Positions 2-42,348 of a stretch of 64,000 bases of DNA are shown one piece after another; positions within the stretch are counted from its first letter, which is position 1, and each line of letters begins with the position of its first letter. The notes beneath the pieces are model-generated. The model was not told the DNA's origin. It did no database searches and saw only the letters and a list, made by a program, of their open reading frames with translations. A program made the position numbers and the translations under genes. This DNA is from Candidatus Nitrosoglobus terrae (GTDB taxonomy: Bacteria > Pseudomonadota > Gammaproteobacteria > Nitrosococcales > Nitrosococcaceae). Location: the NCBI RefSeq assembly GCF_002356115.1, contig NZ_AP014836.1:496001-560000 (forward strand), in the 5' to 3' direction.

Positions 2-1543
2 TACGCCGAATATTGGTCCCCTGTCCCGTTCAGCCAATATTTAGATCCTGATACATACTACACACCTCCAAGTGCACCGGCTAAGGTTGCTACTCGAGAG
101 GAATGTATAAAGTGCCATAAAGATGAGACTAAAGGCTGGGTGCATTCATGGGAGCAAAGCGTACATGCGAACTTAGATGAGATTCGCAAATTAACCAAGG
201 ATGATCCGCGCTTCTATAAGAAGGAGCTTATACAGGAAGTTGAGAATAATCTTCGCTCTATGGGTAAGCTTAAAGAAGGTCAGAATCTCAAAGAAGTCTC
301 CTGTATCGATTGTCATGTGGGTATTGGTGCTGAAAAAGGTAGCCATAAAGAAGATCTTCGTCTCCCTGACGCTGCCGCTTGTGGAGTTTGCCATCTACAG
401 CAGTTTGCGGAGCGAGAATCAGAACGCGATACGCTTACTTGGCCGAGTACAGATGTTCATGGCAAAAAAATAGATCCCGTTTGGCCTCCAGGCCGCCCCT
501 CTCATGCTCTTGATTATCAAGCTAATGTAGAGCTTGCAACTTGGGCTGCAATGGAGGATCGGTCAATCGCAGATGGCTGTACCATGTGTCATATCAACCA
601 AAATCGCTGTGATACTTGCCATACCCGCCATCAGTTCTCGGCTACAGAAGCACGCAAGCCGGAGGCGTGTGGCTACTGTCATAATGGTGCCGATCATAAT
701 GAATATGAAAACTATATGATGTCAAAACATGGCACTGTTTATGAGACCCATAGTGATGAGTGGGACTGGAATTTACCGCTTAAAGATGCGGTTTCTAAAG
801 GAAAGCAAACTGCGCCTACCTGTGCTTTCTGTCATATGGAGTATGAGGGTGAATTTAGTCATAACGTAGTGCGTAAGGTGCGTTGGGCTTTTAATCCTCA
901 AGAAAAAATTGCAGATAACCTTGAACAAGGATGGTATACAGATCGCAGTAAGTCTTGGGTAAAGACCTGTAGAAATTGCCATTCAGGAAAATTTGCTAAG
1001 AGCTATCTAGAGTTTTCAGATAGTGGAACTATTTCTGGCCTTAAGAAGCAGATTGAAGTGAAAGGGATTATGGAGGCACTTTATAAGGATAAATTGCTAC
1101 CTGGCCAAACCACCAATCGCCCTCTTCCAGCTAAGCCAGAGCAGGATGGTCCAGGAGAATTCTTCCAGCTATTTATGGCTAAGGATAATAATCCCACTAC
1201 GGTTGAGCTAGCGTACTCTAAGCTGTGGGAGCAGGATTTACTCCAGAACTATAAGGGTCTTTTCCACGTATTCCCAGGTGGTTTTACCTATACATGGGGT
1301 TGGGCGCCTCTGATTCAACACTATGTTGAGATTCAAACTGAAAATACTAAGCTTCGAGATTTTGCTAAGTTGAAATCTCAAGTTGCTACGCTTGAATCTA
1401 CGGTAGGGAGGCTAAAAACTGCGAGCGTGCTAGATCTGGATAGTAAAATGAAGCAAGCTGTTATTGGAAGTCTTGGAAGTGGTATGGTACTTGTTGGTGT
1501 AGGCTTAGTAGCTTGGCGCCGTAAGCAGCAGACAAAAGGCTAA
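2..1543 (+). CDS. hao: Hydroxylamine oxidoreductase, 3' part (5' end outside window)
   Basis: This is the octahaem periplasmic enzyme that oxidises hydroxylamine in ammonia oxidation. The reading frame is open from base 2, and the visible 513 residues contain all eight CXXCH sites: CIKCH, CIDCH, CGVCH, CTMCH, CDTCH, CGYCH, CAFCH and CRNCH. The tyrosine in GFTYTWGW (codon at 1289-1291) lies about 237 residues after the fourth haem site. This fits the Tyr that cross-links to haem P460 in Nitrosomonas HAO. The C-terminus has a hydrophobic segment followed by RRKQQ, so the protein may be membrane-anchored. The family is about 570 residues long, so only the signal peptide and a short N-terminal part are missing. 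orf2 starts 6 bases after the stop codon, indicating one operon. Family assignment is secure. Confidence 0.96.
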   Translation, partial: YAEYWSPVPFSQYLDPDTYYTPPSAPAKVATREECIKCHKDETKGWVHSWEQSVHANLDEIRKLTKDDPRFYKKELIQEVENNLRSMGKLKEGQNLKEVSCIDCHVGIGAEKGSHKEDLRLPDAAACGVCHLQQFAERESERDTLTWPSTDVHGKKIDPVWPPGRPSHALDYQANVELATWAAMEDRSIADGCTMCHINQNRCDTCHTRHQFSATEARKPEACGYCHNGADHNEYENYMMSKHGTVYETHSDEWDWNLPLKDAVSKGKQTAPTCAFCHMEYEGEFSHNVVRKVRWAFNPQEKIADNLEQGWYTDRSKSWVKTCRNCHSGKFAKSYLEFSDSGTISGLKKQIEVKGIMEALYKDKLLPGQTTNRPLPAKPEQDGPGEFFQLFMAKDNNPTTVELAYSKLWEQDLLQNYKGLFHVFPGGFTYTWGWAPLIQHYVEIQTENTKLRDFAKLKSQVATLESTVGRLKTASVLDLDSKMKQAVIGSLGSGMVLVGVGLVAWRRKQQTKG

Positions 1544-1549
1544 CAATTC

Positions 1550-2614
1550 GTGTCTGTAGCTAAAGAAGAAGCTGTGCTACCCTCCTCAACTGGAGTAGGT
1601 AAAGCTCCCCTGCTTATCGGTTTAGTTTTGATAGCGGGGGGGCTTCTCCTCTTAAGCTGGCTTGGTTGGGCGTTATTTAACTCAACTGATGGCCAGAAAG
1701 CTCCATACCATTATAAGAAAATAGCAGAGGGTGGATTAGGAGAATTCTCAGACCTAGTAGATCTTAAGGTTTACGAGGACGAGGGGATTACTATCCGTAA
1801 GTATGAATTAATCGATGAGAAAGTACAGAAAGGTCCTCTAGTAGAGCTTTATGCTGGATCTAAGGATGGCCGAACTCCTGTATTACTGGAGTGGAAGAAT
1901 AATCTAAGAGAGCCGCTGTTAGCTATTAGTGGTGATGTTAAAGATTTAGCTAACCTAGCTCAGGCAGTTAGTCAGCACGTGTCCTCTAAGGCAGTGCTGC
2001 TAGGCTGGTGGGATATATCTCGTCGTCTTGAGTTGCTTACAGGGGTAAATACCTTATTTCATGAGAATTTAGTTCAACCTTTGCTAATACCTGCTCCATG
2101 GGTTAGTCAACAAAAGGCAATTGAAGAGCTAGAAAGTAAATTTTGGCAGGCTACTAAATCAACTGAGGAAAAAGATCGCTTAAAGCGTGTTGTAGACGCG
2201 CTGCTAGCCGATGAAGTAACCGGAACCTCGATGCTAAGGGAACTTGCTGAAGGCCGTGAAGCATATGTTGTTATTCATTCCTCTGATGCTTATAAATTAG
2301 GTGTAATGGAGCCTGATCGCTTTGGTATTGGTTATAGAGATTTTCCTAACCAAGGTGATAGTCATGCGCTGATACCTCATGTTAAAGAGTGGGTAAAGGG
2401 GCAGGGCTATAAAGCTTATCTAGTTGAACGAGTAGATAAAGATGTGGTTCGCGCTTATTTTTTGAGCGATGATGCTTCTAAAAGCTCTTTAATAGCTAAA
2501 ATGTTGCCATTTAACTCTTCAAACCCAATGAAGCTTAAAGCACTTCGTCTTCTTGCTCAATATGGAGGTTATTGGGTCTATTCCCTATCACCCACTGATA
2601 ATAGTACTGGTTAA
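1550..2614 (+). CDS. Nitrifier orf2 protein of the hao cluster
   Basis: This 354-residue protein follows hao after 6 bases and starts with GTG. The position matches the conserved orf2 gene that lies between hao and cycA in ammonia oxidisers, whose function is not established. The sequence shows one N-terminal membrane segment at about residues 19-42 and then a large soluble domain, presumably periplasmic, with no haem motifs. The tight spacing suggests translational coupling to hao and a role in HAO assembly, anchoring or electron transfer. The orf2 name rests on position and general architecture, not on a database match. Confidence 0.75.
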   Translation: MSVAKEEAVLPSSTGVGKAPLLIGLVLIAGGLLLLSWLGWALFNSTDGQKAPYHYKKIAEGGLGEFSDLVDLKVYEDEGITIRKYELIDEKVQKGPLVELYAGSKDGRTPVLLEWKNNLREPLLAISGDVKDLANLAQAVSQHVSSKAVLLGWWDISRRLELLTGVNTLFHENLVQPLLIPAPWVSQQKAIEELESKFWQATKSTEEKDRLKRVVDALLADEVTGTSMLRELAEGREAYVVIHSSDAYKLGVMEPDRFGIGYRDFPNQGDSHALIPHVKEWVKGQGYKAYLVERVDKDVVRAYFLSDDASKSSLIAKMLPFNSSNPMKLKALRLLAQYGGYWVYSLSPTDNSTG

Positions 2615-2641
2615 TTTTATTTTTAATAGAAAAATAACGCT

Positions 2642-3126
2642 ATGTGCCGGATAGTAAAACATTCAGTTTTCTATAGTCTATTTTCAGCTGTTATGAAGGC
2701 AGTAACTTTCTTTCGAGCGCAAAGTAGATCACCCTATAATAGATTTAAGGGTAGAAGTTTGCTGTATAAATTGTGGTTTAAGGTAACTTATGGACAAGCT
2801 ATAAAAGTCTTGGTCGGTAAAGAGACAGGGGCAAAAGGAAAAATAAGATTAAGCCCTAATAATGCCAACAAAGCTGCAACTAAGGAGCTTAATAATTCTT
2901 GGGGCTTTATTCTTTGGGGAATTTTGCAGAGCTGGAGCAGGTGTTAATGGATAGAAAGCATGTGGAGTATTGCAGCGCGTACTATTTAAACCAGCTGACT
3001 TTCCTACAGTTTCATGTTGAAGAGCTTTACGTATCTTTTATTACTACCCTTAAAGTAGATTGGAAATTCCAGTTTAAATTTAAAGAATCAGCGCGTAATG
3101 AAGGGGCAATGCATGAGGCATTATAA
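2642..3126 (+). pseudogene. cycA: Decayed cytochrome c554 gene (cycA remnant)
   Basis: This stretch sits exactly where cycA is expected, between orf2 and cycB, but no frame contains a CXXCH haem site. Two overlapping frames, 2642-2947 and 2899-3126, carry fragments that resemble Nitrosomonas c554 as I remember it. FKGR resembles the FEGR before haem 1. AKGKIRLSPN resembles AKQKAKLDP. EYCSAYYLN resembles ERCSACHLN. VDWKFQFKF followed by AMHE resembles VDAKYTFKF followed by AMHE. In the third of these the haem motif CSACH reads CSAYY, which needs only TGC to TAC and CAT to TAT. The frame changes near 2900, and the region with haems 2 and 3 seems deleted. I infer a pseudogene of the tetrahaem electron acceptor of HAO. 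An unrelated small ORF is possible but less likely. Confidence 0.62.
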
Positions 3127-3202
3127 GCTAAGTAAGGTCTACTTTTTCTTGCAGCCCTGTATTCTAAAAGCACGCTACACCGCCTGAGGAGTAAAAAGTA
3201 TT

Positions 3203-3844
3203 ATGTTGTTGTCTAAGTTAAAACAATGGTGTCAAACCATTTGTGAGTATTTTAAGGTTAACTGGCGCCCTATATCGATTGGAGCAGGAGGGTTTTTTGC
3301 TTTAATTGTTATCGTTTTTGGTGGCGAAGCTGCATTGTCAACAACCACGTTTTGTACCAGCTGCCATTCTATGTCCTATCCCTACAAGGAATTAAAGACA
3401 TCTGCACATTATGGATCCTATGGAATAGAGCCTCAATGTAAAGATTGTCATATCCCTCAAGGGTTAGCCAATTTTCATTTAGCAGTAGCAACCCACGTGG
3501 TAGATGGCGCTCGAGAACTTTATCTTGAAACGATGCATGATTACTCAACACTTGAGAAATTTAATGAGCGTCGACAAGAGATGGCTCATCACGCTCGCTT
3601 AAATTTAAAAGGCTGGGATAGCATGACTTGTCGGCGTTGTCATGAGAATCCGCAGCCTGTCGCTAAATCTGGCCAGAAGGCGCATAAAAAGCTTGCCCAA
3701 GGATGGACATGCATTGATTGTCATCAAAATCTTGTGCATGCAAAAGTGGAGTTTACTGATCTCAATGCCAGCCTTAAGAAAGGTAAGATGGTGATTACTA
3801 AGGAAATAGATTGGACGGATAAGTATCCACTGGCAAACCGTTGA
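3203..3844 (+). CDS. cycB: NapC/NirT-family tetrahaem cytochrome, cM552 type
   Basis: This 213-residue membrane-anchored c-type cytochrome has one N-terminal transmembrane helix at about residues 24-46. Four haem sites follow: CTSCH (in CTSCHSM, the NapC/NrfH-style first haem with a nearby Met), CKDCH, CRRCH and CIDCH. In nitrifiers it passes electrons from the HAO side to the quinone pool, normally through c554. A GAGGAG ribosome-binding site lies at 3186-3191. It is the last gene of the hao cluster and ends just before a strong terminator. With the upstream cycA apparently dead, this protein might receive electrons directly or from a c554 encoded elsewhere; that is inference. Confidence 0.9.
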   Translation: MLLSKLKQWCQTICEYFKVNWRPISIGAGGFFALIVIVFGGEAALSTTTFCTSCHSMSYPYKELKTSAHYGSYGIEPQCKDCHIPQGLANFHLAVATHVVDGARELYLETMHDYSTLEKFNERRQEMAHHARLNLKGWDSMTCRRCHENPQPVAKSGQKAHKKLAQGWTCIDCHQNLVHAKVEFTDLNASLKKGKMVITKEIDWTDKYPLANR

Positions 3845-23000: not shown

Positions 23001-25539
23001 GAAAATGACCGTAATTACCGGAGTTTCCGGTTCCGGTAAAAGCACGGTGGCGTTTGATATTCTCTTTGCAGAAGGTCAGCGGCGCTATTTAGAATCGCTA
23101 AATGCCTATGCTCGGCAGTTTGTGCAGCCAGCAGCTCGCCCTGACATCGACGCTGTTTTTGGGATTCCTCCCACGGTGGCTATTGAGCAGCGTATCAGCC
23201 GTGGAGGTCTGAAAAGTACCGTAGCTACGCTGACTGAGATTTACCATTTCCTACGATTGTTATTTGTAAAGCTGGGCCAGCAGTATTGCCCCGATTGCCA
23301 AATTCCCATTGAAGCGCAAACCTTGGAAATGATCCAAGCGCAACTGTTGCGAGATCATCGAGGTCGTCGCTTGCGGGTATTGGCTCCTTTAGTGGTAGCT
23401 CGTAAAGGTTATTATACTGATCTTGTTCAATGGGCTAGCAGGAAAGGATTTACCCATTTGCGAGTGGATGGTGATCTGGTAGCTACTAATAATTGGCCGC
23501 GTCTTGATCGGTTTAAGGAGCATTCTATTGAGTTGCCAGTAGGGGAGATCGTCGTGTCCTCTAAAGCAGAAAAAGCAATATATACTTTGTTGGCGCAAGC
23601 TTTAGATTTAGGCCAAGGTAGGGTTGAGCTACTACCAGTAAACCCAAGATCTTTACCCGATCAAGAAAAAATGATCTATTCTACCAAACGCGTTTGCCTA
23701 AATTGCCATCGTAACTTTATCGATCTTGATCCCCGTTTGTTTTCTTTTAATTCTAAGCATGGTTGGTGTCTTCATTGTTATGGTACGGGTCAGCAATTGC
23801 CTAATGCTGATGATATTTCTGATGAGGAGGGGCAAGCGCAGGTCAGACAGCTAGAAAATACTGATCCCTGCCCCGTTTGCCATGGCCAACGATTACGCCC
23901 TGAAGCTTTAGCGGTACGGTTCCAAAATCGAGGTATTACTGAATTTACCCGGATGTCGGTCATGGAAGCAGAGATGGTATTTCATTCATTAAAGCTACTG
24001 GGACGTGAGGCTGAAATTGCCCGAGATATCTTGCCTGAGTTGCGGTCACGGCTGAAATTCTTAAAAGAAGTAGGCTTATCTTACCTAGCTCTAGATCGGG
24101 CTGCCTCTACCCTAAGTGGGGGTGAATCCCAGCGTATTCGTTTAGCCGCCCAGCTCGGATCTAACCTGCGAGGGGTGTGCTATATCTTGGATGAGCCGAC
24201 CATTGGCCTTCATCCTCGGGATAATCAAATGCTGCTGAAGACATTAACACAGCTAGGACACAAGGGAAATACCATTATTGTGGTCGAGCACGATGAGGAA
24301 ACTATTCGCCGTGCTGACTATGTCATTGATCTAGGGCCAGGGGCGGGGATAAATGGGGGGCAGGTGGTCGCGGTAGGAGATGTAGCTACATTACTCAACC
24401 ATCCAGAGTCAGTCACAGGTCATTGCCTAGCTCATCCTCTAGTCCATCCAGTTAGAAAAAGACGACGATCCCATTTTTCTGAACATCTGCTTGAGATTCA
24501 GGGAGCTTTTCTTCATAACTTAAAGCATTTTAATGTGAGTTTCCCGTTAGGATGCTTAATTGGGGTCACGGGCGTAAGCGGTAGTGGTAAGAGTACTTTA
24601 GTACGGCAGATACTATATAGAAATTTACGGCAATTATTGGCAGCAAGACCCAACGAGCAAGGTAAGCCTGATTTCAAGCTTGAAGGCTGTAAAAATCTTC
24701 GAGGCTGGGAAGTGATTAAGCGGGTGCTTGAGGTCGATCAAACTCCTATTGGTAAAACCCCCCGTTCTTGTCCTGCCACTTATGTTGGCTTTTGGGACGA
24801 GATCCGGCATCTTTTTTCCGAGACACCATCAGCTAAGATACGGGGTTATAAGCCTAGCCGGTTTTCCTTTAATGTTAAGGAAGGCCGCTGTCCAGCCTGT
24901 GAAGGGCAAGGGGTAAAGAAAATTGAAATGAGTTTTCTGCCCAATGTGATTATTCCCTGCGAGCTTTGTCATGGGAGTCGTTTTACGCCTGAGACATTAA
25001 TGATTCACTATAAGGAGAAAAACATTGGTGAAGTCTTGGCGATGAGCGTTGAGCAAGCCGCTGAATTTTTCTCTGCCCATAAAAAGATTTATCGGCCCTT
25101 GCAGCTACTCCAGGCCGTAGGTTTGAATTATCTAAGCTTAGGTCAACCTAGCCCCACTTTAAGTGGCGGAGAGGCGCAAAGGATTCGGCTAGTTGCCGAG
25201 CTGGCTAAAATAGGGACTACTGCCCATTATCATACCTTGTATATTTTAGATGAACCCACGATTGGGCTACATATGGCCGATGTGGCCAAGCTTATCCACG
25301 TGATCCAGCAGTTGGTGGAGGGCGGTAATACCGTCATTGTGATTGAGCACAACCTAGATGTGATTGCCGAGGTGGATTGGTTAATTGATCTAGGCTCAGA
25401 AGGGGGCGAAGGGGGCGGGGAGATTGTAGCGCAAGGCTCCCCTGAAGCCGTGGCTAAAACCCGATCCGGTTCCCATACCGCCAGATTTTTGGCACGATTT
25501 TTGAGGCGATCGGGTAAGCTATCTATCTATAGCCTCTAG
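20011..25539 (+). CDS. uvrA: Double-length UvrA (tandem UvrA fusion)
   Basis: This 1842-residue protein contains two complete UvrA units in one chain, whereas ordinary UvrA is about 940 residues. Four Walker A sites (GVSGSGKS) are seen, near residues 37, 647, 1010 and 1520. Each has an ABC signature: LSGGEVQRI, LSGGEAQRL, LSGGESQRI and LSGGEAQRI. Each also has a Walker B such as LDEPSIGLHP or FDEPTTGLHF. Each unit has its own zinc-binding cysteine clusters. UvrA normally dimerises to find bulky DNA damage, so this chain may act as a covalent dimer. Long UvrA proteins of this kind occur as second copies in some proteobacteria. ATG 20011 was chosen because GAGGAG lies 6 bases before it; ATG 19981 is less likely. 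Confidence 0.95.
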   Translation: MVDRYILIEGARQNNLKNLNLQLPLNELIVITGVSGSGKSSLAFDTIYAEGQRRYVETFSPYARQFLDRMDKPQVDRIEGIPPAIAIDQVNPVRTSRSTVGTMTELNDHLKLLFARAAQLYCRNCGQPVQKDTPNSIYQQLLAQYQDRPNKTRVLITFEVVIPDNFSAQEIKGLLFKQGYTRIHYQTDQILEIIQDRVPIVVDQQARIIEALEIALKHGRDRLTVYPLDEERKPHSPQRFSANFHCPHCDIPYQEPVPHQFSFNSPLGACETCRGFGRIIGIDEGLVIPDTQKTLAEGAIKPWQTASYQECQEDLIRFANGCGMPIDRPWQDLTPDQQRWVLEGEGAWEDNQWYGVKRFFSWLESKSYKMHIRVLLSKYRAYHPCPVCQGARLKPEALLWRLGTKADADWVLPETKHFKPEWEALPGLTLQDVVLLPIARCQQFFQQLKLPAPLDEATELLLSEIRTRLDYLVEVGLGYLTLDRQSRTLSGGEVQRINLTTALGTSLVNTLFVLDEPSIGLHPRDMARIIRILQRLRDAGNSLLVVEHDPQVMLAADRILDLGLGPGEHGGNLVFFGSPHELPTHHSLTAQYLTGKKQIINSSVMVAKSVASAYFEILGASAHNLKQINVRFPLNRLVCVTGVSGSGKSTLVQEVLYKGWCKLKGKPTETPGAYQALKGHELIQDVVLVDQSPIGKTTRSNPASYVGALESFRKAFANEPLARERGYTAGTFSFNNGAGRCPTCNGNGFEQVEMQFLSDVYLRCPDCNGQRYRLEILEVKLRPSGDNLGKSIAEVLDLTVTEAATFFTDYPEILRKIEPLQAVGLGYMKLGQPVPTLSGGEAQRLKLAGYLRKAQAYKKEKTGILFLFDEPTTGLHFEDITVLLQAFRQLLAAGHSLVVIEHHLDLIQGADWIIDLGSEGGEAGGEVICSGSPDEVMQCERSHTGLALRNHQQSTFAGVAEPVLAYREEVKGENLVISIHNAREHNLKGIDLEIPREKMTVITGVSGSGKSTVAFDILFAEGQRRYLESLNAYARQFVQPAARPDIDAVFGIPPTVAIEQRISRGGLKSTVATLTEIYHFLRLLFVKLGQQYCPDCQIPIEAQTLEMIQAQLLRDHRGRRLRVLAPLVVARKGYYTDLVQWASRKGFTHLRVDGDLVATNNWPRLDRFKEHSIELPVGEIVVSSKAEKAIYTLLAQALDLGQGRVELLPVNPRSLPDQEKMIYSTKRVCLNCHRNFIDLDPRLFSFNSKHGWCLHCYGTGQQLPNADDISDEEGQAQVRQLENTDPCPVCHGQRLRPEALAVRFQNRGITEFTRMSVMEAEMVFHSLKLLGREAEIARDILPELRSRLKFLKEVGLSYLALDRAASTLSGGESQRIRLAAQLGSNLRGVCYILDEPTIGLHPRDNQMLLKTLTQLGHKGNTIIVVEHDEETIRRADYVIDLGPGAGINGGQVVAVGDVATLLNHPESVTGHCLAHPLVHPVRKRRRSHFSEHLLEIQGAFLHNLKHFNVSFPLGCLIGVTGVSGSGKSTLVRQILYRNLRQLLAARPNEQGKPDFKLEGCKNLRGWEVIKRVLEVDQTPIGKTPRSCPATYVGFWDEIRHLFSETPSAKIRGYKPSRFSFNVKEGRCPACEGQGVKKIEMSFLPNVIIPCELCHGSRFTPETLMIHYKEKNIGEVLAMSVEQAAEFFSAHKKIYRPLQLLQAVGLNYLSLGQPSPTLSGGEAQRIRLVAELAKIGTTAHYHTLYILDEPTIGLHMADVAKLIHVIQQLVEGGNTVIVIEHNLDVIAEVDWLIDLGSEGGEGGGEIVAQGSPEAVAKTRSGSHTARFLARFLRRSGKLSIYSL

Positions 25540-26912: not shown

Positions 26913-27446
26913 TGCTTTTTCTCGTATTATTGGCTATAAACAATTTATTTATCGGCTATGAAAAAACGTACTTAATTAAATATGGCCTCAAAAATAACCT
27001 CTGTCCTGTGAGCCCCTCCAAGTTTTAATGAGTACCCAATAAGCCATGGGGCTTGATAGGCATCCCCAGCTCTCCCTTACGGATCTTTATTTAAGCTGCA
27101 ATACGCTGCATTCTGCGCTAGATCTTATCTTTACCATCGAAATTTTTTCACTAGATAAAGACTTAGGGACGGTTCCCTGTGGATTTTTAGTTACAGTTGT
27201 ATGGGGTGTATACACAATACCTCCCTCCCTACCCTTGATGTAGTTTATCTTCCTGCCTGTTTCATAGATGAATTGGGCGTTAGCGGCTAGAAAGTAAAGT
27301 ACCTTTTAGCTTTGATATTGGGTTAAGAGATTGGATCTTAAATTAAATGAAAATATATAGTAATGTTAATAATTTAGATTATTTTAATCATTAAATTTAT
27401 AGATAATTATGAGTTAGATTTGGAACGCTTGATGGAGTTACTAAAA
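26913..27446 (+). other. Leader region of the first giant secreted protein
   Basis: No supported gene. From about 26950 this stretch is recognisably similar to 31673-32080, upstream of the second copy. Shared words include CTATGAAAAAA, CCAAGTTTTAAT and AACCATGGGGC/AGCCATGGGGC. It is therefore the ancestral upstream region of the duplicated unit, but it has diverged far more than the coding part. Promoters are probably here but I could not fix them. Confidence 0.5.
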
Positions 27447-30400
27447 ATGATCAAAAAGAATAACTGGGGTATTGGGTTATTGTTAGGGGTTTTATTGGCA
27501 TTAAGTATCTCGACTCCGTCTAGAGGGGCAGGGTCAGCGATCGTTATAGACAATGTAATGAGTCAATTTTCAGGGAGTCAAACGAATGTTCCAGTAACTT
27601 TTGGCCAGATCTTCAAAGCCGGTGATGTGCCCAAAGGTACTACTGTAGCGGCAATGATTAACAATCAAGCGGTTCCATTACAAGTAGATGTAAAAGCGAG
27701 CTATCCGGATGGAAGTCTCAGGCATGCCGTATTGACTGCTCAAATTCCATCTCTAGCGGGTAATAGTCAACAATCTTTACAGCTGTCGACGACAGCCTCA
27801 TCATCAGGGGCGCCGCTCCCCACGCCACCTCAGAGTACGCCACCACTAACGGGCAATGATCAAGAATCCTTGCAGCAGCTGACAGCAGATCTATCAGCCC
27901 TTGGTACACCCCCCGCTACAATAGCGAAAATCACTGCATTACTAGCGAATAATCCTCAAGAAGTTTCAGTGCTGTTGGCGCAAAATTTATCAGCCCCTGG
28001 GATGTCACCTACCACGATATCACAACTGGTTGCATCCCTATCAAGTAATACCCAAGGAGCTTCACAATCCTCGACGGCAACTTCGCCAGCACCCTCGACG
28101 ACAGCTTCATCCGCGGGGGCTACGTCCATCACCTTATCACAACTGTTGGCGACCTCTTACGATGCCATTGCGTCAGTGACGCTCAACGGCGCTGTCTATA
28201 CAGTGGCTGCCCGTACATTACTAGAAGCAGCAGAATCTGCGGGTCAGTGTGCAGCATGGGGAACCTCCTGCAATATCTGGCTTGAGGGGTCGCTGGTGAG
28301 CGAATGGGTAGTCAACGGATCAGTGCAATCATCAGATGGGACGAGTAACCCAAATCTTAGAGTATATTTTGCGATACGGGCCTATGGCGGAGCCAATCCA
28401 GGTGAAATTGCCTATGTCAGTACTGATATTATCTTTGAGAATACTTGGGCCTATACCCTCCCGGCTTTGCTAGAATACAGCGCTACTGTGACTTCGGGCA
28501 GCGCCAGCTTTAGCAGCGAAACCCTTAGTCAATACCCTTATACCCGTTGGCATAAGGTTTTATGGTGGAATGAGCAGCAACCACAGGTCTACGTGCAGCA
28601 GAACACCCAGTATATTCAAGAGACGGGGGCTATCTCGCGCTATATGGCGCTAAGCCCAGCTGAGAGTTATCTGGCAAATCTACCCCAATCATGCCCACCA
28701 CTGCAGATCTGCGATCAGGAGAAGGCGATGGGTGAAGAGGGCGCGCAAGACGGTATTGGGCCTTTACCCCTTTGGACTACGGTGTACATCGAAAACCCTG
28801 ATATACGGGCCTATAACAATATGCTCGCTAATACCGATGGTATTGGGCCCTATAGCGTCCATTATCGCGATCAAGCCACGGGCTGGCCTGTGAGTATCCA
28901 GCGACATCCCTATATTACGATTACCAACTGGGGTTATGCTAATCACGCTGGGTATAACGGAAGTAGCGCTATAGATAAGAGCTATCTTGCCGATCTACTA
29001 CCGCCAAATTGTACTAATTGCAATAACCCAGATAGTTATGATACGGCCCATCAGCCATCAGTAGCGTACGTGCCGTATATGGTGACTGGATCCTACTATT
29101 ACATGTCCGAGCTGGCCCTTGATGCGTCGTATAATGAAATTTGGTCTGATCCGCCGGCGAGAAAGTACGCGACAGGATTGATAGGTAATTATGCTCAACC
29201 TCAGCCCCGAGGGATTGCGTGGACTATTCGCAATGTGGCCGATGCGGCCTATCTTTTACCCGATAACTACCCCCTGAAAGCAGAGTTTAATGAAGATATC
29301 AATAATAATCTTACCTTCTTCAATACCACCTACAGCAATAATCCAAGTGCCAATATCTTCGGTGTTCCGCAACCCTTTCGTGACGATGGCAGTCAACCGT
29401 GGCAGATGTCGCCATTTATGCATGCCTTTCTTGTCTGGTCATTTCAGCATCTAGCAGATCTTGGGTTTTCAGAAGCAGCGGCTTTCGTCAAGTGGTTAGG
29501 TCAGTATGAGATCCATGTCATGACCGCTTGGCAGCAAGAGCCCACGGGATTTTGTTGGACCTTAGCGGAGACCTATAATTTACCTGTCCAAACCCCGAGC
29601 GGTGATTGGTTAACCTACGATGAAGCCTACGCGCAAAAGTGGCCTACCCTTAAAGGTCTGACGTGTAACTCGCCGCAAATGGCGCAAGCACTGACCGCTG
29701 TAGGACTTCCAGATAAAGGCTATGGCCCGTATCAAGTCGGGCAGATGTTTGATCACGCCTACGCTAATGATGGTTTTCCCGCTAACTTACAAATTGCACT
29801 GGCGGCCTTAGTCGATGCGGGGGTGGCGAATGCTCAGAGTGCATGGAATATTTTTCAGTCCCGTAGTGTGCAGCCCTCTGGTGAGGATACCTATAATGAT
29901 TATCCAAACTTTGCGCTGCTGCCGCGTTCAGCTACGAACGAACCGATTGTCAATATCTTTGCGAAGCCAAACCCCATGGTTTCGGGTAAAGCGTCGATTA
30001 TTTACTGGGATGCGAGCGCGGCAACGAGTTGCTCAGCGCCTTGGATGTCAAATACTGAGACGGATGGGTCATTACAGGTGGTCACATCAGGGGGAAATAA
30101 AACTTACTCAGTTGGCTGTACCGGTTCTAACGGTAGTAGTGAAGCGTCATTTACCCTGTATGCAGTTGGAAATGAGCCTCCCTCTTCAAGCGCTTTATCC
30201 TCATCGTCGGGAAGTGGTAGTAAGGGTAACGAAGGGGGTAGTTCCTCTTCCTCAAGCGGCAGTGGCAGTGGAGATCCGCCATCGGTACCCCCAAATAATG
30301 GCGATCCATCCTCATCAAATGATCCTCCACCCCTTGGCGTATTACCACCACCCAGTGGTGCGCTCGGCTCAATTGCTGCCGATTGTGCCAACCTTCAAAC

Positions 30401-31547
30401 TTGTACATTAACAGTAGAAACCAAGGGGCCATTTCCCGATCTGGATGCCGATGGTATGGGTTGGAGTAGCGGCGAATACGCACAGTTAAGCGATGGGCGT
30501 AGCTGTATCTTATTTTTGCTAGGCCATACGACTGATGGCAATCAAAACAACTCCGTACGCTGTTTTAACGCTGCAACCGATCAGTTTTCCTACCTATTGC
30601 CTAACACTGAGAATGATCAGTTTGCCATTAGCGGCAATGGTATCGCGGTACGAGATAACATGACGATGCTTAATGTGCCTAATGTAGGTTTGCTGGTTTT
30701 TGGAGGCGCTTATGGCAACATCATGCCGTCGGGCACTCCTTGGGATGGTTTTCTCGATTATAATCTTGGTCAGTGGACCTTTATTAATAATATTTATAAG
30801 TTATTTATCCCGCCGAGTAACTTCTTTACGTTAGATGGCAGTGTAGAGGTTGCTAGCTGGAGCTCAATGAATCCCGCCACGGCTTGGAGTCAGGCACGGA
30901 ACGTTGGATTTGTTTATGGCGGTGATAATCATGCTGGCGATCCAAGCAATGCGCTGACTTTGGTGCAGCCAAATTCAAACGGAGACGGTCTATTTAGCCT
31001 TGAGTCGATAACACCTCCGCCGTTGGGAACCATGCCTTGTACGTTCGTTCGCAACAATGCGGTGGCAGTGGGTAATTGGGCCTATGTAGTGGGGGGTCGC
31101 TGTGACCATGCTACGGGCGGCGTCTATGATGAGAATGCCTTTAGGCGGTTTAATTTGCAAAACCAGACTTGGCAGACGCTGGCCCCTTTACCCCATCCAC
31201 GGCGGATGCCCGTAGTCACCTATGACTCCCATTCAGGTTATATCGTAGTGTATGGCGGGAATGGTCTAGATCAACCGACCCCTAACGATCAAAATCAACC
31301 AGGGTATTGGCCGGCGCATAATTCAGTGTATCTCTGGAATGTGGCTACTCAAGGGCCGTGGCTTGATATCACCGAGCAAGCCAATATGCCCTATATTCGT
31401 AACGGGGCGGGGGCTTATGATCCAACAACGGGGTGGCATTGTTATCGCCCAGGTAATGTATACGATGCCAATGGAAATGTCATTAGCCCTACCTCAGCGA
31501 CTCGGTCAGTCTCCTGTATGCAGCTGGAGTTTACGTCAAGTAAGTGA
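27447..31547 (+). CDS. Giant secreted multidomain protein, copy 1
   Basis: This 1366-residue protein has a signal peptide (residues 1-30, core GIGLLLGVLLALSIS). An N-terminal beta domain resembles the RIFT-barrel N-domain of PcRGLX/YetA-like proteins (residues about 31-115). Next comes a Ser/Thr/Pro-rich insert of 103 residues absent from copy 2, then a large domain of about 600 residues rich in Trp and Tyr. An Ig-like module (VNIFAKPNPMVSGKASIIYWD) lies near 840-905, and a Ser/Gly/Pro linker near 911-970. The C-terminal beta-propeller resembles kelch/galactose-oxidase repeats (VVTYDSHSGYIVVYGGNG). It may bind or cleave polysaccharide outside the cell. Start ATG 27447 has GGAG 9 bases upstream. 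Catalytic residues were not identified. Confidence 0.75.
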   Translation: MIKKNNWGIGLLLGVLLALSISTPSRGAGSAIVIDNVMSQFSGSQTNVPVTFGQIFKAGDVPKGTTVAAMINNQAVPLQVDVKASYPDGSLRHAVLTAQIPSLAGNSQQSLQLSTTASSSGAPLPTPPQSTPPLTGNDQESLQQLTADLSALGTPPATIAKITALLANNPQEVSVLLAQNLSAPGMSPTTISQLVASLSSNTQGASQSSTATSPAPSTTASSAGATSITLSQLLATSYDAIASVTLNGAVYTVAARTLLEAAESAGQCAAWGTSCNIWLEGSLVSEWVVNGSVQSSDGTSNPNLRVYFAIRAYGGANPGEIAYVSTDIIFENTWAYTLPALLEYSATVTSGSASFSSETLSQYPYTRWHKVLWWNEQQPQVYVQQNTQYIQETGAISRYMALSPAESYLANLPQSCPPLQICDQEKAMGEEGAQDGIGPLPLWTTVYIENPDIRAYNNMLANTDGIGPYSVHYRDQATGWPVSIQRHPYITITNWGYANHAGYNGSSAIDKSYLADLLPPNCTNCNNPDSYDTAHQPSVAYVPYMVTGSYYYMSELALDASYNEIWSDPPARKYATGLIGNYAQPQPRGIAWTIRNVADAAYLLPDNYPLKAEFNEDINNNLTFFNTTYSNNPSANIFGVPQPFRDDGSQPWQMSPFMHAFLVWSFQHLADLGFSEAAAFVKWLGQYEIHVMTAWQQEPTGFCWTLAETYNLPVQTPSGDWLTYDEAYAQKWPTLKGLTCNSPQMAQALTAVGLPDKGYGPYQVGQMFDHAYANDGFPANLQIALAALVDAGVANAQSAWNIFQSRSVQPSGEDTYNDYPNFALLPRSATNEPIVNIFAKPNPMVSGKASIIYWDASAATSCSAPWMSNTETDGSLQVVTSGGNKTYSVGCTGSNGSSEASFTLYAVGNEPPSSSALSSSSGSGSKGNEGGSSSSSSGSGSGDPPSVPPNNGDPSSSNDPPPLGVLPPPSGALGSIAADCANLQTCTLTVETKGPFPDLDADGMGWSSGEYAQLSDGRSCILFLLGHTTDGNQNNSVRCFNAATDQFSYLLPNTENDQFAISGNGIAVRDNMTMLNVPNVGLLVFGGAYGNIMPSGTPWDGFLDYNLGQWTFINNIYKLFIPPSNFFTLDGSVEVASWSSMNPATAWSQARNVGFVYGGDNHAGDPSNALTLVQPNSNGDGLFSLESITPPPLGTMPCTFVRNNAVAVGNWAYVVGGRCDHATGGVYDENAFRRFNLQNQTWQTLAPLPHPRRMPVVTYDSHSGYIVVYGGNGLDQPTPNDQNQPGYWPAHNSVYLWNVATQGPWLDITEQANMPYIRNGAGAYDPTTGWHCYRPGNVYDANGNVISPTSATRSVSCMQLEFTSSK
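27785..28111 (+). repeat. Direct repeats bounding a 309-bp in-frame indel
   Basis: TCGACGACAGCCTCATC at 27786-27802 and TCGACGACAGCTTCATC at 28095-28111 are 309 bases apart. Copy 2 has a single such site, so recombination between the repeats explains the 103-residue difference while keeping the frame. Confidence 0.8.
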
Positions 31548-32071: not shown

Positions 32072-35000
32072 ATGAATGAGATGATCAAAAAGAATAACTG
32101 GGGTATTGGGTTATTGTTAGGGGTTTTATTGGCATTAAGTATCTCGACTCCGTCTAGAGGGGCAGGGTCAGCGATCGTTATAGATAATGTAATGAGTCAA
32201 TTTTCAGGGAGTCAAACGAATGTTCCAGTAACTTTTGGTCAGATCTTCAAAGTCGGTGATGTGCCCAAAGGTACTACTGTAGCGGCAATGATTAACAATC
32301 AAGCGATTCCATTACAAGTAGATGTAAAAGCGAGCTATCCGGATGGAAGTCTCAGGCATGCCGTATTGACTGCTCAAATTCCATCTCTAGCGGGTAATAG
32401 TCAACAATCTTTACAGCTGTCGACGACAGCTTCATCCGCGGGGGCTACGTCCATCACCTTATCACAACTGTTGGCGACCTCTTACGATGCCATTGCGTCA
32501 GTGACGCTCAACGGCGCTGTCTATACAGTGGCTGCCCGTACATTACTAGAAGCAGCAGAATCTGCGGGTCAGTGTGCAGCATGGGGAACCTCCTGCAATA
32601 TCTGGCTTGAGGGGTCGCTGGTGAGCGAATGGGTAGTCAACGGATCAGTGCAATCATCAGATGGGACGAGTAACCCAAATCTTAGAGTATATTTTGCGAT
32701 ACGGGCCTATGGCGGAGCCAATCCAGGTGAAATTGCCTATGTCAGTACTGATATTATCTTTGAGAATACTTGGGCCTATACCCTCCCGGCTTTGCTAGAA
32801 TACAGCGCTACTGTGACTTCGGGCAGCGCCAGCTTTAGCAGCGAAACCCTTAGTCAATACCCTTATACCCGTTGGCATAAGGTTTTATGGTGGAATGAGC
32901 AGCAACCACAGGTCTACGTGCAGCAGAACACCCAGTATATTCAAGAGACGGGGGCTATCTCGCGCTATATGGCGCTAAGCCCAGCTGAGAGTTATCTGGC
33001 AAATCTACCCCAATCATGCCCACCACTGCAGATCTGCGATCAGGAGAAGGCGATGGGTGAAGAGGGCGCGCAAGACGGTATTGGGCCTTTACCCCTTTGG
33101 ACTACGGTGTACATCGAAAACCCTGATATACGGGCCTATAACAATATGCTCGCTAATACCGATGGTATTGGGCCCTATAGCGTCCATTATCGCGATCAAG
33201 CCACGGGCTGGCCTGTGAGTATCCAGCGACATCCCTATATTACGATTACCAACTGGGGTTATGCTAATCACGCTGGGTATAACGGAAGTAGCGCTATAGA
33301 TAAGAGCTATCTTGCCGATCTACTACCGCCAAATTGTACTAATTGCAATAACCCAGATAGTTATGATACGGCCCATCAGCCATCAGTAGCGTACGTGCCG
33401 TATATGGTGACTGGATCCTACTATTACATGTCCGAGCTGGCCCTTGATGCGTCGTATAATGAAATTTGGTCTGATCCGCCGGCGAGAAAGTACGCGACAG
33501 GATTGATAGGTAATTATGCTCAACCTCAGCCCCGAGGGATTGCGTGGACTATTCGCAATGTGGCCGATGCGGCCTATCTTTTACCCGATAACTACCCCCT
33601 GAAAGCAGAGTTTAATGAAGATATCAATAATAATCTTACCTTCTTCAATACCACCTACAGCAATAATCCAAGTGCCAATATCTTCGGTGTTCCGCAACCC
33701 TTTCGTGACGATGGCAGTCAACCGTGGCAGATGTCGCCATTTATGCATGCCTTTCTTGTCTGGTCATTTCAGCATCTAGCAGATCTTGGGTTTTCAGAAG
33801 CAGCGGCTTTCGTCAAGTGGTTAGGTCAGTATGAGATCCATGTCATGACCGCTTGGCAGCAAGAGCCCACGGGATTTTGTTGGACCTTAGCGGAGACCTA
33901 TAATTTACCTGTCCAAACCCCGAGCGGTGATTGGTTAACCTACGATGAAGCCTACGCGCAAAAGTGGCCTACCCTTAAAGGTCTGACGTGTAACTCGCCG
34001 CAAATGGCGCAAGCACTGACCGCTGTAGGACTTCCAGATAAAGGCTATGGCCCGTATCAAGTCGGGCAGATGTTTGATCACGCCTACGCTAATGATGGTT
34101 TTCCCGCTAACTTACAAATTGCACTGGCGGCCTTAGTCGATGCGGGGGTGGCGAATGCTCAGAGTGCATGGAATATTTTTCAGTCCCGTAGTGTGCAGCC
34201 CTCTGGTGAGGATACCTATAATGATTATCCAAACTTTGCGCTGCTGCCGCGTTCAGCTACGAACGAACCGATTGTCAATATCTTTGCGAAGCCAAACCCC
34301 ATGGTTTCGGGTAAAGCGTCGATTATTTACTGGGATGCGAGCGCGGCAACGAGTTGCTCAGCGCCTTGGATGTCAAATACTGAGACGGATGGGTCATTAC
34401 AGGTGGTCACATCAGGGGGAAATAAAACTTACTCAGTTGGCTGTACCGGTTCTAACGGTAGTAGTGAAGCGTCATTTACCCTGTATGCAGTTGGAAATGA
34501 GCCTCCCTCTTCAAGCGCTTTATCCTCATCGTCGGGAAGTGGTAGTAAGGGTAACGAAGGGGGTAGTTCCTCTTCCTCAAGCGGCAGTGGCAGTGGAGAT
34601 CCGCCATCGGTACCCCCAAATAATGGCGATCCATCCTCATCAAATGATCCTCCACCCCTTGGCGTATTACCACCACCCAGTGGTGCGCTCGGCTCAATTG
34701 CTGCCGATTGTGCCAACCTTCAAACTTGTACATTAACAGTAGAAACCAAGGGGCCATTTCCCGATCTGGATGCCGATGGTATGGGTTGGAGTAGCGGCGA
34801 ATACGCACAGTTAAGCGATGGGCGTAGCTGTATCTTATTTTTGCTAGGCCATACGACTGATGGCAATCAAAACAACTCCGTACGCTGTTTTAACGCTGCA
34901 ACCGATCAGTTTTCCTACCTATTGCCTAACACTGAGAATGATCAGTTTGCCATTAGCGGCAATGGTATCGCGGTACGAGATAACATGACGATGCTTAATG

Positions 35001-35872
35001 TGCCTAATGTAGGTTTGCTGGTTTTTGGAGGCGCTTATGGCAACATCATGCCGTCGGGCACTCCTTGGGATGGTTTTCTCGATTATAATCTTGGTCAGTG
35101 GACCTTTATTAATAATATTTATAAGTTATTTATCCCGCCGAGTAACTTCTTTACGTTAGATGGCAGTGTAGAGGTTGCTAGCTGGAGCTCAATGAATCCC
35201 GCCACGGCTTGGAGTCAGGCACGGAACGTTGGATTTGTTTATGGCGGTGATAATCATGCTGGCGATCCAAGCAATGCGCTGACTTTGGTGCAGCCAAATT
35301 CAAACGGAGACGGTCTATTTAGCCTTGAGTCGATAACACCTCCGCCGTTGGGAACCATGCCTTGTACGCTCGTTCGCAACAATGCGGTGGCAGTGGGTAA
35401 TTGGGCCTATGTAGTGGGGGGTCGCTGTGACCATGCTACGGGCGGCGTCTATGATGAGAATGCCTTTAGGCGGTTTAATTTGCAAAACCAGACTTGGCAG
35501 ACGCTGGCCCCTTTACCCCATCCACGGCGGATGCCCGTAGTCACCTATGACTCCCATTCAGGTTATATCGTAGTGTATGGCGGGAATGGTCTAGATCAAC
35601 CGACCCCTAACGATCAAAATCAACCAGGGTATTGGCCGGCGCATAATTCAGTGTATCTCTGGAATGTGGCTACTCAAGGGCCGTGGCTTGATATCACCGA
35701 GCAAGCCAATATGCCCTATATTCGTAACGGGGCGGGGGCTTATGATCCAACAACGGGGTGGCATTGTTATCGCCCAGGTAATGTATACGATGCTAATGGA
35801 AATGTCATTAGCTTTACCTCAGCGACTCGGTCAGTCTCCTGTATGCAGCTGGAGTTTACGTCAAGTAAGTAA
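32072..35872 (+). CDS. Giant secreted multidomain protein, copy 2
   Basis: This 1266-residue protein is almost identical to copy 1 apart from the missing 103-residue Ser/Thr/Pro-rich insert. I found only four substitutions in the shared part: FKVGD for FKAGD, AIPLQ for AVPLQ, CTLVRN for CTFVRN, and ISFTSA for ISPTSA. The domain order is the same: signal peptide, RIFT-like N-domain, large central domain, Ig-like module, Ser/Gly/Pro linker (about 810-870) and beta-propeller. ATG 32072 or ATG 32081 could be the start; the second aligns with copy 1. It ends 126 bases before the first P450 frame. Near-identity next to diverged leaders points to gene conversion or strong constraint. Confidence 0.75.
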   Translation: MNEMIKKNNWGIGLLLGVLLALSISTPSRGAGSAIVIDNVMSQFSGSQTNVPVTFGQIFKVGDVPKGTTVAAMINNQAIPLQVDVKASYPDGSLRHAVLTAQIPSLAGNSQQSLQLSTTASSAGATSITLSQLLATSYDAIASVTLNGAVYTVAARTLLEAAESAGQCAAWGTSCNIWLEGSLVSEWVVNGSVQSSDGTSNPNLRVYFAIRAYGGANPGEIAYVSTDIIFENTWAYTLPALLEYSATVTSGSASFSSETLSQYPYTRWHKVLWWNEQQPQVYVQQNTQYIQETGAISRYMALSPAESYLANLPQSCPPLQICDQEKAMGEEGAQDGIGPLPLWTTVYIENPDIRAYNNMLANTDGIGPYSVHYRDQATGWPVSIQRHPYITITNWGYANHAGYNGSSAIDKSYLADLLPPNCTNCNNPDSYDTAHQPSVAYVPYMVTGSYYYMSELALDASYNEIWSDPPARKYATGLIGNYAQPQPRGIAWTIRNVADAAYLLPDNYPLKAEFNEDINNNLTFFNTTYSNNPSANIFGVPQPFRDDGSQPWQMSPFMHAFLVWSFQHLADLGFSEAAAFVKWLGQYEIHVMTAWQQEPTGFCWTLAETYNLPVQTPSGDWLTYDEAYAQKWPTLKGLTCNSPQMAQALTAVGLPDKGYGPYQVGQMFDHAYANDGFPANLQIALAALVDAGVANAQSAWNIFQSRSVQPSGEDTYNDYPNFALLPRSATNEPIVNIFAKPNPMVSGKASIIYWDASAATSCSAPWMSNTETDGSLQVVTSGGNKTYSVGCTGSNGSSEASFTLYAVGNEPPSSSALSSSSGSGSKGNEGGSSSSSSGSGSGDPPSVPPNNGDPSSSNDPPPLGVLPPPSGALGSIAADCANLQTCTLTVETKGPFPDLDADGMGWSSGEYAQLSDGRSCILFLLGHTTDGNQNNSVRCFNAATDQFSYLLPNTENDQFAISGNGIAVRDNMTMLNVPNVGLLVFGGAYGNIMPSGTPWDGFLDYNLGQWTFINNIYKLFIPPSNFFTLDGSVEVASWSSMNPATAWSQARNVGFVYGGDNHAGDPSNALTLVQPNSNGDGLFSLESITPPPLGTMPCTLVRNNAVAVGNWAYVVGGRCDHATGGVYDENAFRRFNLQNQTWQTLAPLPHPRRMPVVTYDSHSGYIVVYGGNGLDQPTPNDQNQPGYWPAHNSVYLWNVATQGPWLDITEQANMPYIRNGAGAYDPTTGWHCYRPGNVYDANGNVISFTSATRSVSCMQLEFTSSK

Positions 35873-40574: not shown

Positions 40575-41957
40575 ATGATTAGGCTGGAGGTTTATGGACA
40601 GGGGCTAGGGTGTGCTCTTTGCTGGCTGCTTCTGTTATTTTTGCTCTCAGGTTGCTCGACAGTACCTTTTTTTTCGCCTCCCTACCCGCAACAAGCACAG
40701 GTATGGAGAGAGGCGCTATATCAAAGCCAGGATAAACGGGTGCTAGAGAAGATTAGCCGGCAAACTAGGAAGAAGGATCGGCTCCTCTACACGTTAGAGG
40801 CTGGGCGTGTAGCCCAAATTATGGGTTATTATGGCGATAGCGAGAAGTGGTTCCAGCAGGCCGCTGACCTTTATGAAAAAAATGATGAAGCTGCGCGTAT
40901 CCGTGTTTCTAGCTTGAGCCAATCAGTAACTGCAATAGCGATAAATGATAATTTTATCCATTATCAAGCTCAGCCTTATGAGCGAATCTTAAGCTATACT
41001 TTTCAGGCATTAAATTATCTTGCCCAAGGTGATATTGTAGGTGCCGCTGTAGAGTTTCGCCGCGTAGACTATACTCAACGCCAGCAAGAATTAGATCACC
41101 AAAAACAAATTACTAAAGCAGAAGAAAAAAACAAAGGTAAGGATAGTGTTGGTATTAATGAATATGAGGGTTATTTCTCTGGTCTCAACAGCGCTGCCGC
41201 TTTAGTACGTTCCGGCATTCAGAATGCGTATAGTTATTATCTGGCTGCTGCTTTTTGGGAAGGACAGGGGCTATATAATGATGCACTGGTGGATTATAAA
41301 CAGGCACTACAGATTTTGCCTGATTCCGATTTTATTAAAGCCGATGTTCAGCGAGCATCGCATAAACTAAATGGCCAAGTTAATAAAAATGGCCTGCTGA
41401 TTATAGCGCTGGAGCAAGGTTTTGTCCCCACCAAAGAACCGGTAAGGATTCCAATACCTACCGATCAAGGGATTGTGATCATTAATTTCCCTGTCTACCA
41501 AATAAACCGTTTATCTGATCCGCTGCCTATGCAGGTAAAAGTCAATAAGGATGAGATCACTACTCAACCATTGATAAATGTGGGTGCTATTGCTGCCCAT
41601 GCACTGAAAGAACAACTATCAAGTATCATAGCCCGCCAGATTGCTAGGACAGCAGCTAAATATACTATTCAGAGAGAAGTTAATGAGAGTCTAGGGTTAC
41701 TGGGTAGCTATGCAATACAATTATACAATTTTGTCTCTGAGCAGGCTGATCTACGCAGTTGGATGACATTACCGGCTAATAGCCAAGTAGCCCGCCTTGA
41801 GCTGGCTGCCGGTACCTATGAGGTTGGATTGTCGTTATCGGGTAGCCATGCCAATTTGGTAGTGCCGATATCAGTACAAGGGGTTACTTTGTTGAGAGTG
41901 ATTGACCTAGGGGGACGTCTGATCACCCAGACTATGCCCATTAATGGAGGAAGCTAA
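40575..41957 (+). CDS. COG3014-family lipoprotein
   Basis: This 460-residue predicted lipoprotein has the lipobox LLSGC with Cys near residue 27. The N-terminal two thirds is helical and TPR-like, including YLAQGDIVGAAVEFRRVDYTQ and YNDALVDYKQALQILPDSD. The C-terminal third is beta-rich. COG3014 proteins are unassigned but are commonly encoded with YcfL, LpoB and CsgG-like proteins, as here. The four genes at 40575-44302 probably form one operon. I infer an outer-membrane-associated complex linked to peptidoglycan synthesis or to an export pore. The stop TAA lies 1 base before the ycfL start. Confidence 0.8.
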   Translation: MIRLEVYGQGLGCALCWLLLLFLLSGCSTVPFFSPPYPQQAQVWREALYQSQDKRVLEKISRQTRKKDRLLYTLEAGRVAQIMGYYGDSEKWFQQAADLYEKNDEAARIRVSSLSQSVTAIAINDNFIHYQAQPYERILSYTFQALNYLAQGDIVGAAVEFRRVDYTQRQQELDHQKQITKAEEKNKGKDSVGINEYEGYFSGLNSAAALVRSGIQNAYSYYLAAAFWEGQGLYNDALVDYKQALQILPDSDFIKADVQRASHKLNGQVNKNGLLIIALEQGFVPTKEPVRIPIPTDQGIVIINFPVYQINRLSDPLPMQVKVNKDEITTQPLINVGAIAAHALKEQLSSIIARQIARTAAKYTIQREVNESLGLLGSYAIQLYNFVSEQADLRSWMTLPANSQVARLELAAGTYEVGLSLSGSHANLVVPISVQGVTLLRVIDLGGRLITQTMPINGGS

Positions 41958-41958
41958 G

Positions 41959-42348
41959 ATGAAACAGATATGGGCGGTATTATTAGCGCTAGTATTATTG
42001 GCAGGTTGTTCAGCCAGCAATATGGCGCGGCTGGAATCGCAGAATGGTGAGATAAAGACAGTGGTACACTCTAACAATCTCTTACTATCATCCCGGTTAG
42101 CTATTAAAAACATTATTATCAGCCAAGTGGGCGATTTGATGAAAGCCCAAGCTACGCTGGAAAATCGTTGGAAATTTCGGCTAGATTTTCAATACCAATT
42201 TAAATGGTTTGATAAGAACGGTTTTGAGATAGCCCCTGAGAGGTCGCCTTGGCAGCAACTGGTCATGCCTGGACGTACCCAAGCAAACGTACAGGCATTA
42301 GCGCCGAACTCCAGCGCTATGCGCTTTGAAATCTGGGCTCAGGAATAA
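41959..42348 (+). CDS. ycfL: YcfL-family lipoprotein
   Basis: This 129-residue lipoprotein has the lipobox LLAGC (Cys near residue 17) and a beta-sandwich-like domain with FQYQFKWFDKNGFEI and ERSPWQQLVMPGRTQ. In E. coli ycfL lies directly next to lpoB (ycfM), and the order is kept here. It begins 1 base after COG3014, with AATGGAGG at 41943-41950 as ribosome-binding site. ATG 41959 is preferred over 41944. The function is not known, but linkage to LpoB suggests a role in cell-wall synthesis. Confidence 0.85.
   Translation: MKQIWAVLLALVLLAGCSASNMARLESQNGEIKTVVHSNNLLLSSRLAIKNIIISQVGDLMKAQATLENRWKFRLDFQYQFKWFDKNGFEIAPERSPWQQLVMPGRTQANVQALAPNSSAMRFEIWAQE

Follow-up and report, generated by a model that had tools for sequence, protein, structure and literature searches.

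In the textbook scheme of ammonia oxidation, electrons pass from hydroxylamine oxidoreductase (HAO) to the soluble tetrahaem cytochrome c554, the product of cycA, and from there to the tetrahaem cytochrome cM552, the product of cycB. Intact cycA is present in Nitrosomonas europaea (c554 structures PDB 1bvb, 1ft5 and 1ft6) and in Nitrosococcus-type genomes. However, the loss of cycA in Candidatus Nitrosoglobus terrae, with remains of the gene noted, was reported by Picone et al. (ISME J 2020; PMC8115276) along with its loss in Ca. Nitrosacidococcus tergens, and it has since been repeated for Ca. Na. urinae and discussed again in 2026 (PMC9574496, PMC13170337). The operons of Ca. Na. tergens and Ca. 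Na. urinae are alike in running hao-haoB-cycB without cycA (PMC8115276, PMC9574496, PMC13170337), and differ from that of N. terrae in that cycA is gone there, except for a tail of about nine codons in a related sister genome. HAO without a neighbouring c554 gene is also seen in the flanks examined at the haoA loci of Methylocystis and its relatives, but there a neighbouring four-haem cycB is missing too.

Here we describe, at base level, the locus in N. terrae, an acid-tolerant gammaproteobacterial ammonia oxidiser, using a window of 64,000 nucleotides (C1:496001-560000) from a genome of 2,018,309 bases. The TAO100 locus of Picone et al. is very probably the same one: they give a G+C content of 42% for Ca. 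Nitrosoglobus terrae and list BAW79846 and BAW79847 as proteins left over within the operon (PMC8115276), and the G+C content of the window is 42.4%. An earlier note on this DNA, made from its letters, had proposed that cycA is dead in place and that this would change the accepted electron path. The loss is real but has been known since 2020, so the finding was right but not new, and the electron-path question was likewise already in print in 2020 and 2026 (PMC8115276; PMC13170337).

The hao operon in N. terrae and its relatives

All features of the operon described below lie on the forward (+) strand, and coordinates are those of the window unless stated otherwise. The genes either side of the cycA position are intact, as the earlier note had judged them to be. 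The haoA gene (2..1543) starts upstream of the window, carries eight CXXCH motifs within it and matches PF13447 (E 6e-146) and PDB 4fas (E 5e-188). It is followed by haoB, or orf2 (1550..2614), with 354 codons free of stops, whose orthologues in five related genomes are 62-65% identical, and then, beyond the cycA position, by cycB (3203..3844), which encodes cytochrome cM552 of the NapC/NirT family with four CXXCH motifs (PF03264, E 3.5e-44).

These five relatives, all of the same family, were obtained from a family-level genome search; a contig scan with HAO as query mostly recovered HAO loci of alphaproteobacterial and burkholderial origin, without close relatives. One contig from an alphaproteobacterium, a Rhodospirillales MAG (L001), has hao with four-haem cycA-like and cycB-like genes nearby, i.e., the nitrifier arrangement. 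Four of the five relatives belong to one genus (Nitrosococcus-type; complete genomes of 3.3-4.1 Mb) and have the order hao-haoB-cycA-cycB, with an uninterrupted 240-codon, four-haem cycA. The fifth, of another genus (Nitrosacidococcus-type; 1,848,551 bp), has only about 247 bases between haoB and cycB, and a profile built from the four intact CycA proteins found no match in its genome. The size of the Ca. Na. tergens genome of Picone et al. is 1,811,369 bp and no cycA remains were found in their strain (PMC8115276); the sister genome analysed here may be that of another strain or species. At none of the relatives' loci compared does a different intact gene occupy the cycA position.

Identity and decay of the segment between haoB and cycB

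The segment at 2642..3194, colinear with cycA from the old start codon to the old stop codon, is very probably (probability about 0.93) the decayed remnant of cycA, and we found no evidence to the contrary. It aligns significantly with cycA of the four Nitrosococcus-type relatives, as the earlier note had suggested checking: MAFFT placed it end to end on cycA, a frameshift-aware protein-DNA alignment covered residues 1-239 with scores of 143-155 (at most 38 in 12 dinucleotide shuffles), and the best local DNA alignments scored 59-72 (at most 37 in 300 shuffles). The residual identity to intact cycA is about 40% over 160 codons. When the whole 2.02-Mb genome was searched with the CycA profile, only two fragments matched, both at this locus: one spans residues 1-76 (E 3.4e-4), the other residues 148-211 (E 1.4e-7). 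The span first proposed, 2642-3126, is real but slightly short: homology starts at the start codon at 2642 and reaches the old cycA stop at 3192-3194.

While the remnant shares operon place and colinear sequence with the intact cycA of the Nitrosococcus-type genomes and N. europaea, it differs from them in having no haem site, a broken frame and no ribosome-binding site. None of the four CXXCH haem sites of a functional c554 is left, nor an uninterrupted frame preceded by a ribosome-binding site. The absence of CXXCH that had been noted at the cycA position extends to both strands between HAO and cycB, the last HAO motif being at C1:496968 and the next motif at C1:499353. What the segment does have is what characterises a pseudogene, i.e., significant colinear homology to an intact gene at the syntenic place together with inactivating lesions and a lost codon-position constraint.

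The lesions, for which we give residue numbers of Nitrosococcus-type cycA, begin upstream of the gene. In the former ribosome-binding region (2615..2641) the relatives' AAGGAG (Shine-Dalgarno) is lost, with the ATG start at 2642 kept. None of the haem sites survives: site 1 (CKSCH in relatives, C35-H39; 2750..2764) was removed by small deletions with a net loss of 12 nt; sites 2 (CVGCH) and 3 (CESCH) disappeared with a deletion of about 153 nt, residues 76-126, whose junction is at 2860..2861; and site 4 (2971..2985) changed from CNACH to CSAYY (C167Y, H168Y). The last of these falls within EYCSAYYLN, correctly recognised from the letters as a former haem site, which aligns with ERCNACHLN of Nitrosococcus-type c554. 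The histidine of TAHGQAM has likewise become tyrosine. Beyond the haem sites and the Shine-Dalgarno loss, there are three frameshifts and one nonsense codon: a 1-nt deletion at 2920..2923 (about 2921), a 1-nt insertion at 3118..3118 immediately 5' of HYKL, a net 4-nt insertion accompanied by an 18-nt deletion relative to Nitrosococcus-type cycA (3131..3161), and an in-frame TAA at Gln231 (3165..3167). Identity of the remnant to the relatives is nearly flat across codon positions 1, 2 and 3 (0.62/0.64/0.58), compared with 0.81/0.89/0.49 for cycB in the same genome pair. Of the 125 differences at sites invariant among the four relatives, 97 are transitions, with C to T and G to A the commonest. 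The flat identity and the excess of transitions together look like drift after loss of function. This base-level map of cycA decay is new here.

Two open frames are present within the segment, as listed in the earlier note, at 2642-2947 (101 aa) and 2899-3126 (75 aa), and two proteins (BAW79846, BAW79847) are annotated there in the published genome (PMC8115276), which could be taken to mean that they are genuine small genes with some other role. We regard this as very improbable, given that the two frames together track cycA end to end and overlap because of the 1-nt deletion at about 2921 that joins them, that identity within them is flat across codon positions, and that comparable open frames are missing from the sister genus. 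Neither fragment matches a Pfam family. In a PDB sequence search the sole match of the 75-aa fragment was c554 (E 0.85, too weak when taken alone), and the 101-aa fragment matched only ribosomal protein L24, by chance. More improbable still is an intact cycA that only looks damaged through mistakes in sequencing or assembly, a reading for which we found no support, since dozens of substitutions, large deletions, frameshifts and a nonsense codon occur together between intact flanking genes, the sister genus is without cycA independently of the N. terrae assembly, and published analyses agree on the loss (PMC8115276).

The part of the remnant nearest to cycB is well kept. This tail (KHATPPEE-stop; 3168..3194) ends in the codons GAGGAG, placed as a Shine-Dalgarno sequence for cycB. 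The distance from the cycA stop to the cycB start is about 20 nt in Nitrosococcus-type genomes, where it contains AGGAG, compared with 8 nt in N. terrae and about 6 nt in the sister genome; in the latter two, the last cycA codons (GAGGAG or AAGGAG) are themselves in the ribosome-binding position of cycB. When the register is set by the start of cycB, 26 of 34 bases of the sister-genome tail match the window tail, compared with 17 in the next best register in the gap. This anchored comparison is the decisive one; local alignment of the sister gap with the remnant without such an anchor is weak and was reached by 10 of 500 shuffles. A cycA trace of about nine codons thus survives before cycB in the Nitrosacidococcus-type genome (L022, about 30 bases upstream). 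Of cycA, only these last codons, which overlap the start of cycB translation, are still recognisable in this sister genus, plausibly because the tail serves cycB. The persistence of this tail where cycB of a Nitrosacidococcus-type genome has its ribosome-binding site is also new here.

The recognisable remnant in N. terrae, set beside a sister genome that keeps the 3' tail only, could reflect two losses, one in the Nitrosoglobus line and one in the Nitrosacidococcus line, instead of one in their ancestor; at fourfold sites the two genomes are close to saturation (46% identity). We find two losses possible but doubtful, a single loss being simpler. Measured at first and second positions, the branch leading to the remnant is 0.53 and, after a rough deduction for change in the constrained phase, is about equal to the fourfold-site branch since the split (0.36); as these lengths are similar, timing does not separate one loss from two.

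Electron transfer from HAO and substitutions near its P460-crosslinking tyrosine

Intact HAO and cM552 are encoded in a genome in which we found c554 nowhere. The whole-genome profile search suggested by the earlier note yielded no tetrahaem c554 besides the two locus fragments, PF13435 had no match anywhere in the genome, and a whole-genome census of CXXCH gave no frame with at least three clustered motifs besides HAO and CycB. The pairs and singles inspected, named by reading of their sequences, were di-haem c4-like, peroxidase-type, other di-haem, tandem monohaem and cytochrome c1-like proteins, as well as DnaJ and UvrA, in which the CXXCH pairs are zinc sites. An apparent CXXCH cluster at 23695-24972 of the window is UvrA.

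From its gene content, N. terrae appears to have lost c554 altogether. Since c554 is gone while HAO and cM552 are intact, electrons would most simply go from HAO to cM552 directly, and we consider it probable that HAO passes electrons to the membrane tetrahaem cM552 and that these then enter the quinone pool. In this scheme, cycA has lost its ribosome-binding site, all four haem motifs and its reading frame and has drifted, while HAO, HaoB and cM552 are intact, and hydroxylamine electrons would flow from HAO through cM552 to the quinone pool. Direct contact between HAO and cM552 cannot be excluded according to Simon and Klotz, quoted in a 2026 mBio paper (PMC13170337). Another soluble c-type cytochrome could instead have taken over the role of c554 between the two, as the genome encodes a di-haem c4-like protein (C1 about 271,140-271,775) and two tandem monohaem proteins (C1 about 41,460-42,200) that could act as shuttles. 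This seems rather unlikely, as no substitute candidate is encoded in the hao operon and, because respiratory chains with bc1 and terminal oxidases commonly include cytochromes of these types, finding them is no pointer to a new role. Ammonia oxidation without c554 shows that the carrier is dispensable, and direct transfer from HAO to cM552 becomes a testable question.

HAO itself differs in the two c554-less genomes, which have nine changes in common that are unseen in 18 outgroup HAOs or in the Nitrosococcus-type genomes. Five of the nine lie within residues 415-432 (window 1244-1297): K415Q, H416N, A421F, N424F and E432W in window numbering, the last turning TYTEGW into TYTWGW in both genomes. 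By alignment, E432 corresponds to residue 469 of PDB 4fas, two after Tyr467, which we take to be the P460-crosslinking tyrosine of N. europaea HAO (PDB 4fas numbering). This cluster of substitutions near the crosslinking tyrosine is new here. One possibility is that HAO has been reshaped to function or dock in the absence of c554, e.g., in a direct HAO-cM552 complex, or for low pH, but we rate this as improbable, and low-pH adaptation is an equal candidate for the changes. In Methylocystis and its relatives, unlike in the c554-less genera, the HAO residues surrounding the crosslinking tyrosine are the usual ones. As these methanotroph HAOs have no c554 gene beside them either, the changes do not simply follow from the lack of c554. 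CycB of the c554-less genera is more basic than that of their relatives, though the charge shifts in HAO and CycB are confounded by comparison genomes that are marine and salt-adapted.

The copper nitrite reductase family (NirK, TIGR02376) has no match in N. terrae or the sister genome and is matched in 4/4 Nitrosococcus-type genomes; the absence of NirK from the acid-tolerant genomes has already been published. Elsewhere in the window, two tandem, nearly identical genes (27420-31547 and 32072-35872) encode large secreted-looking proteins (1375 and 1266 aa) in which a linker is rich in serine and proline, and are a recent duplication.
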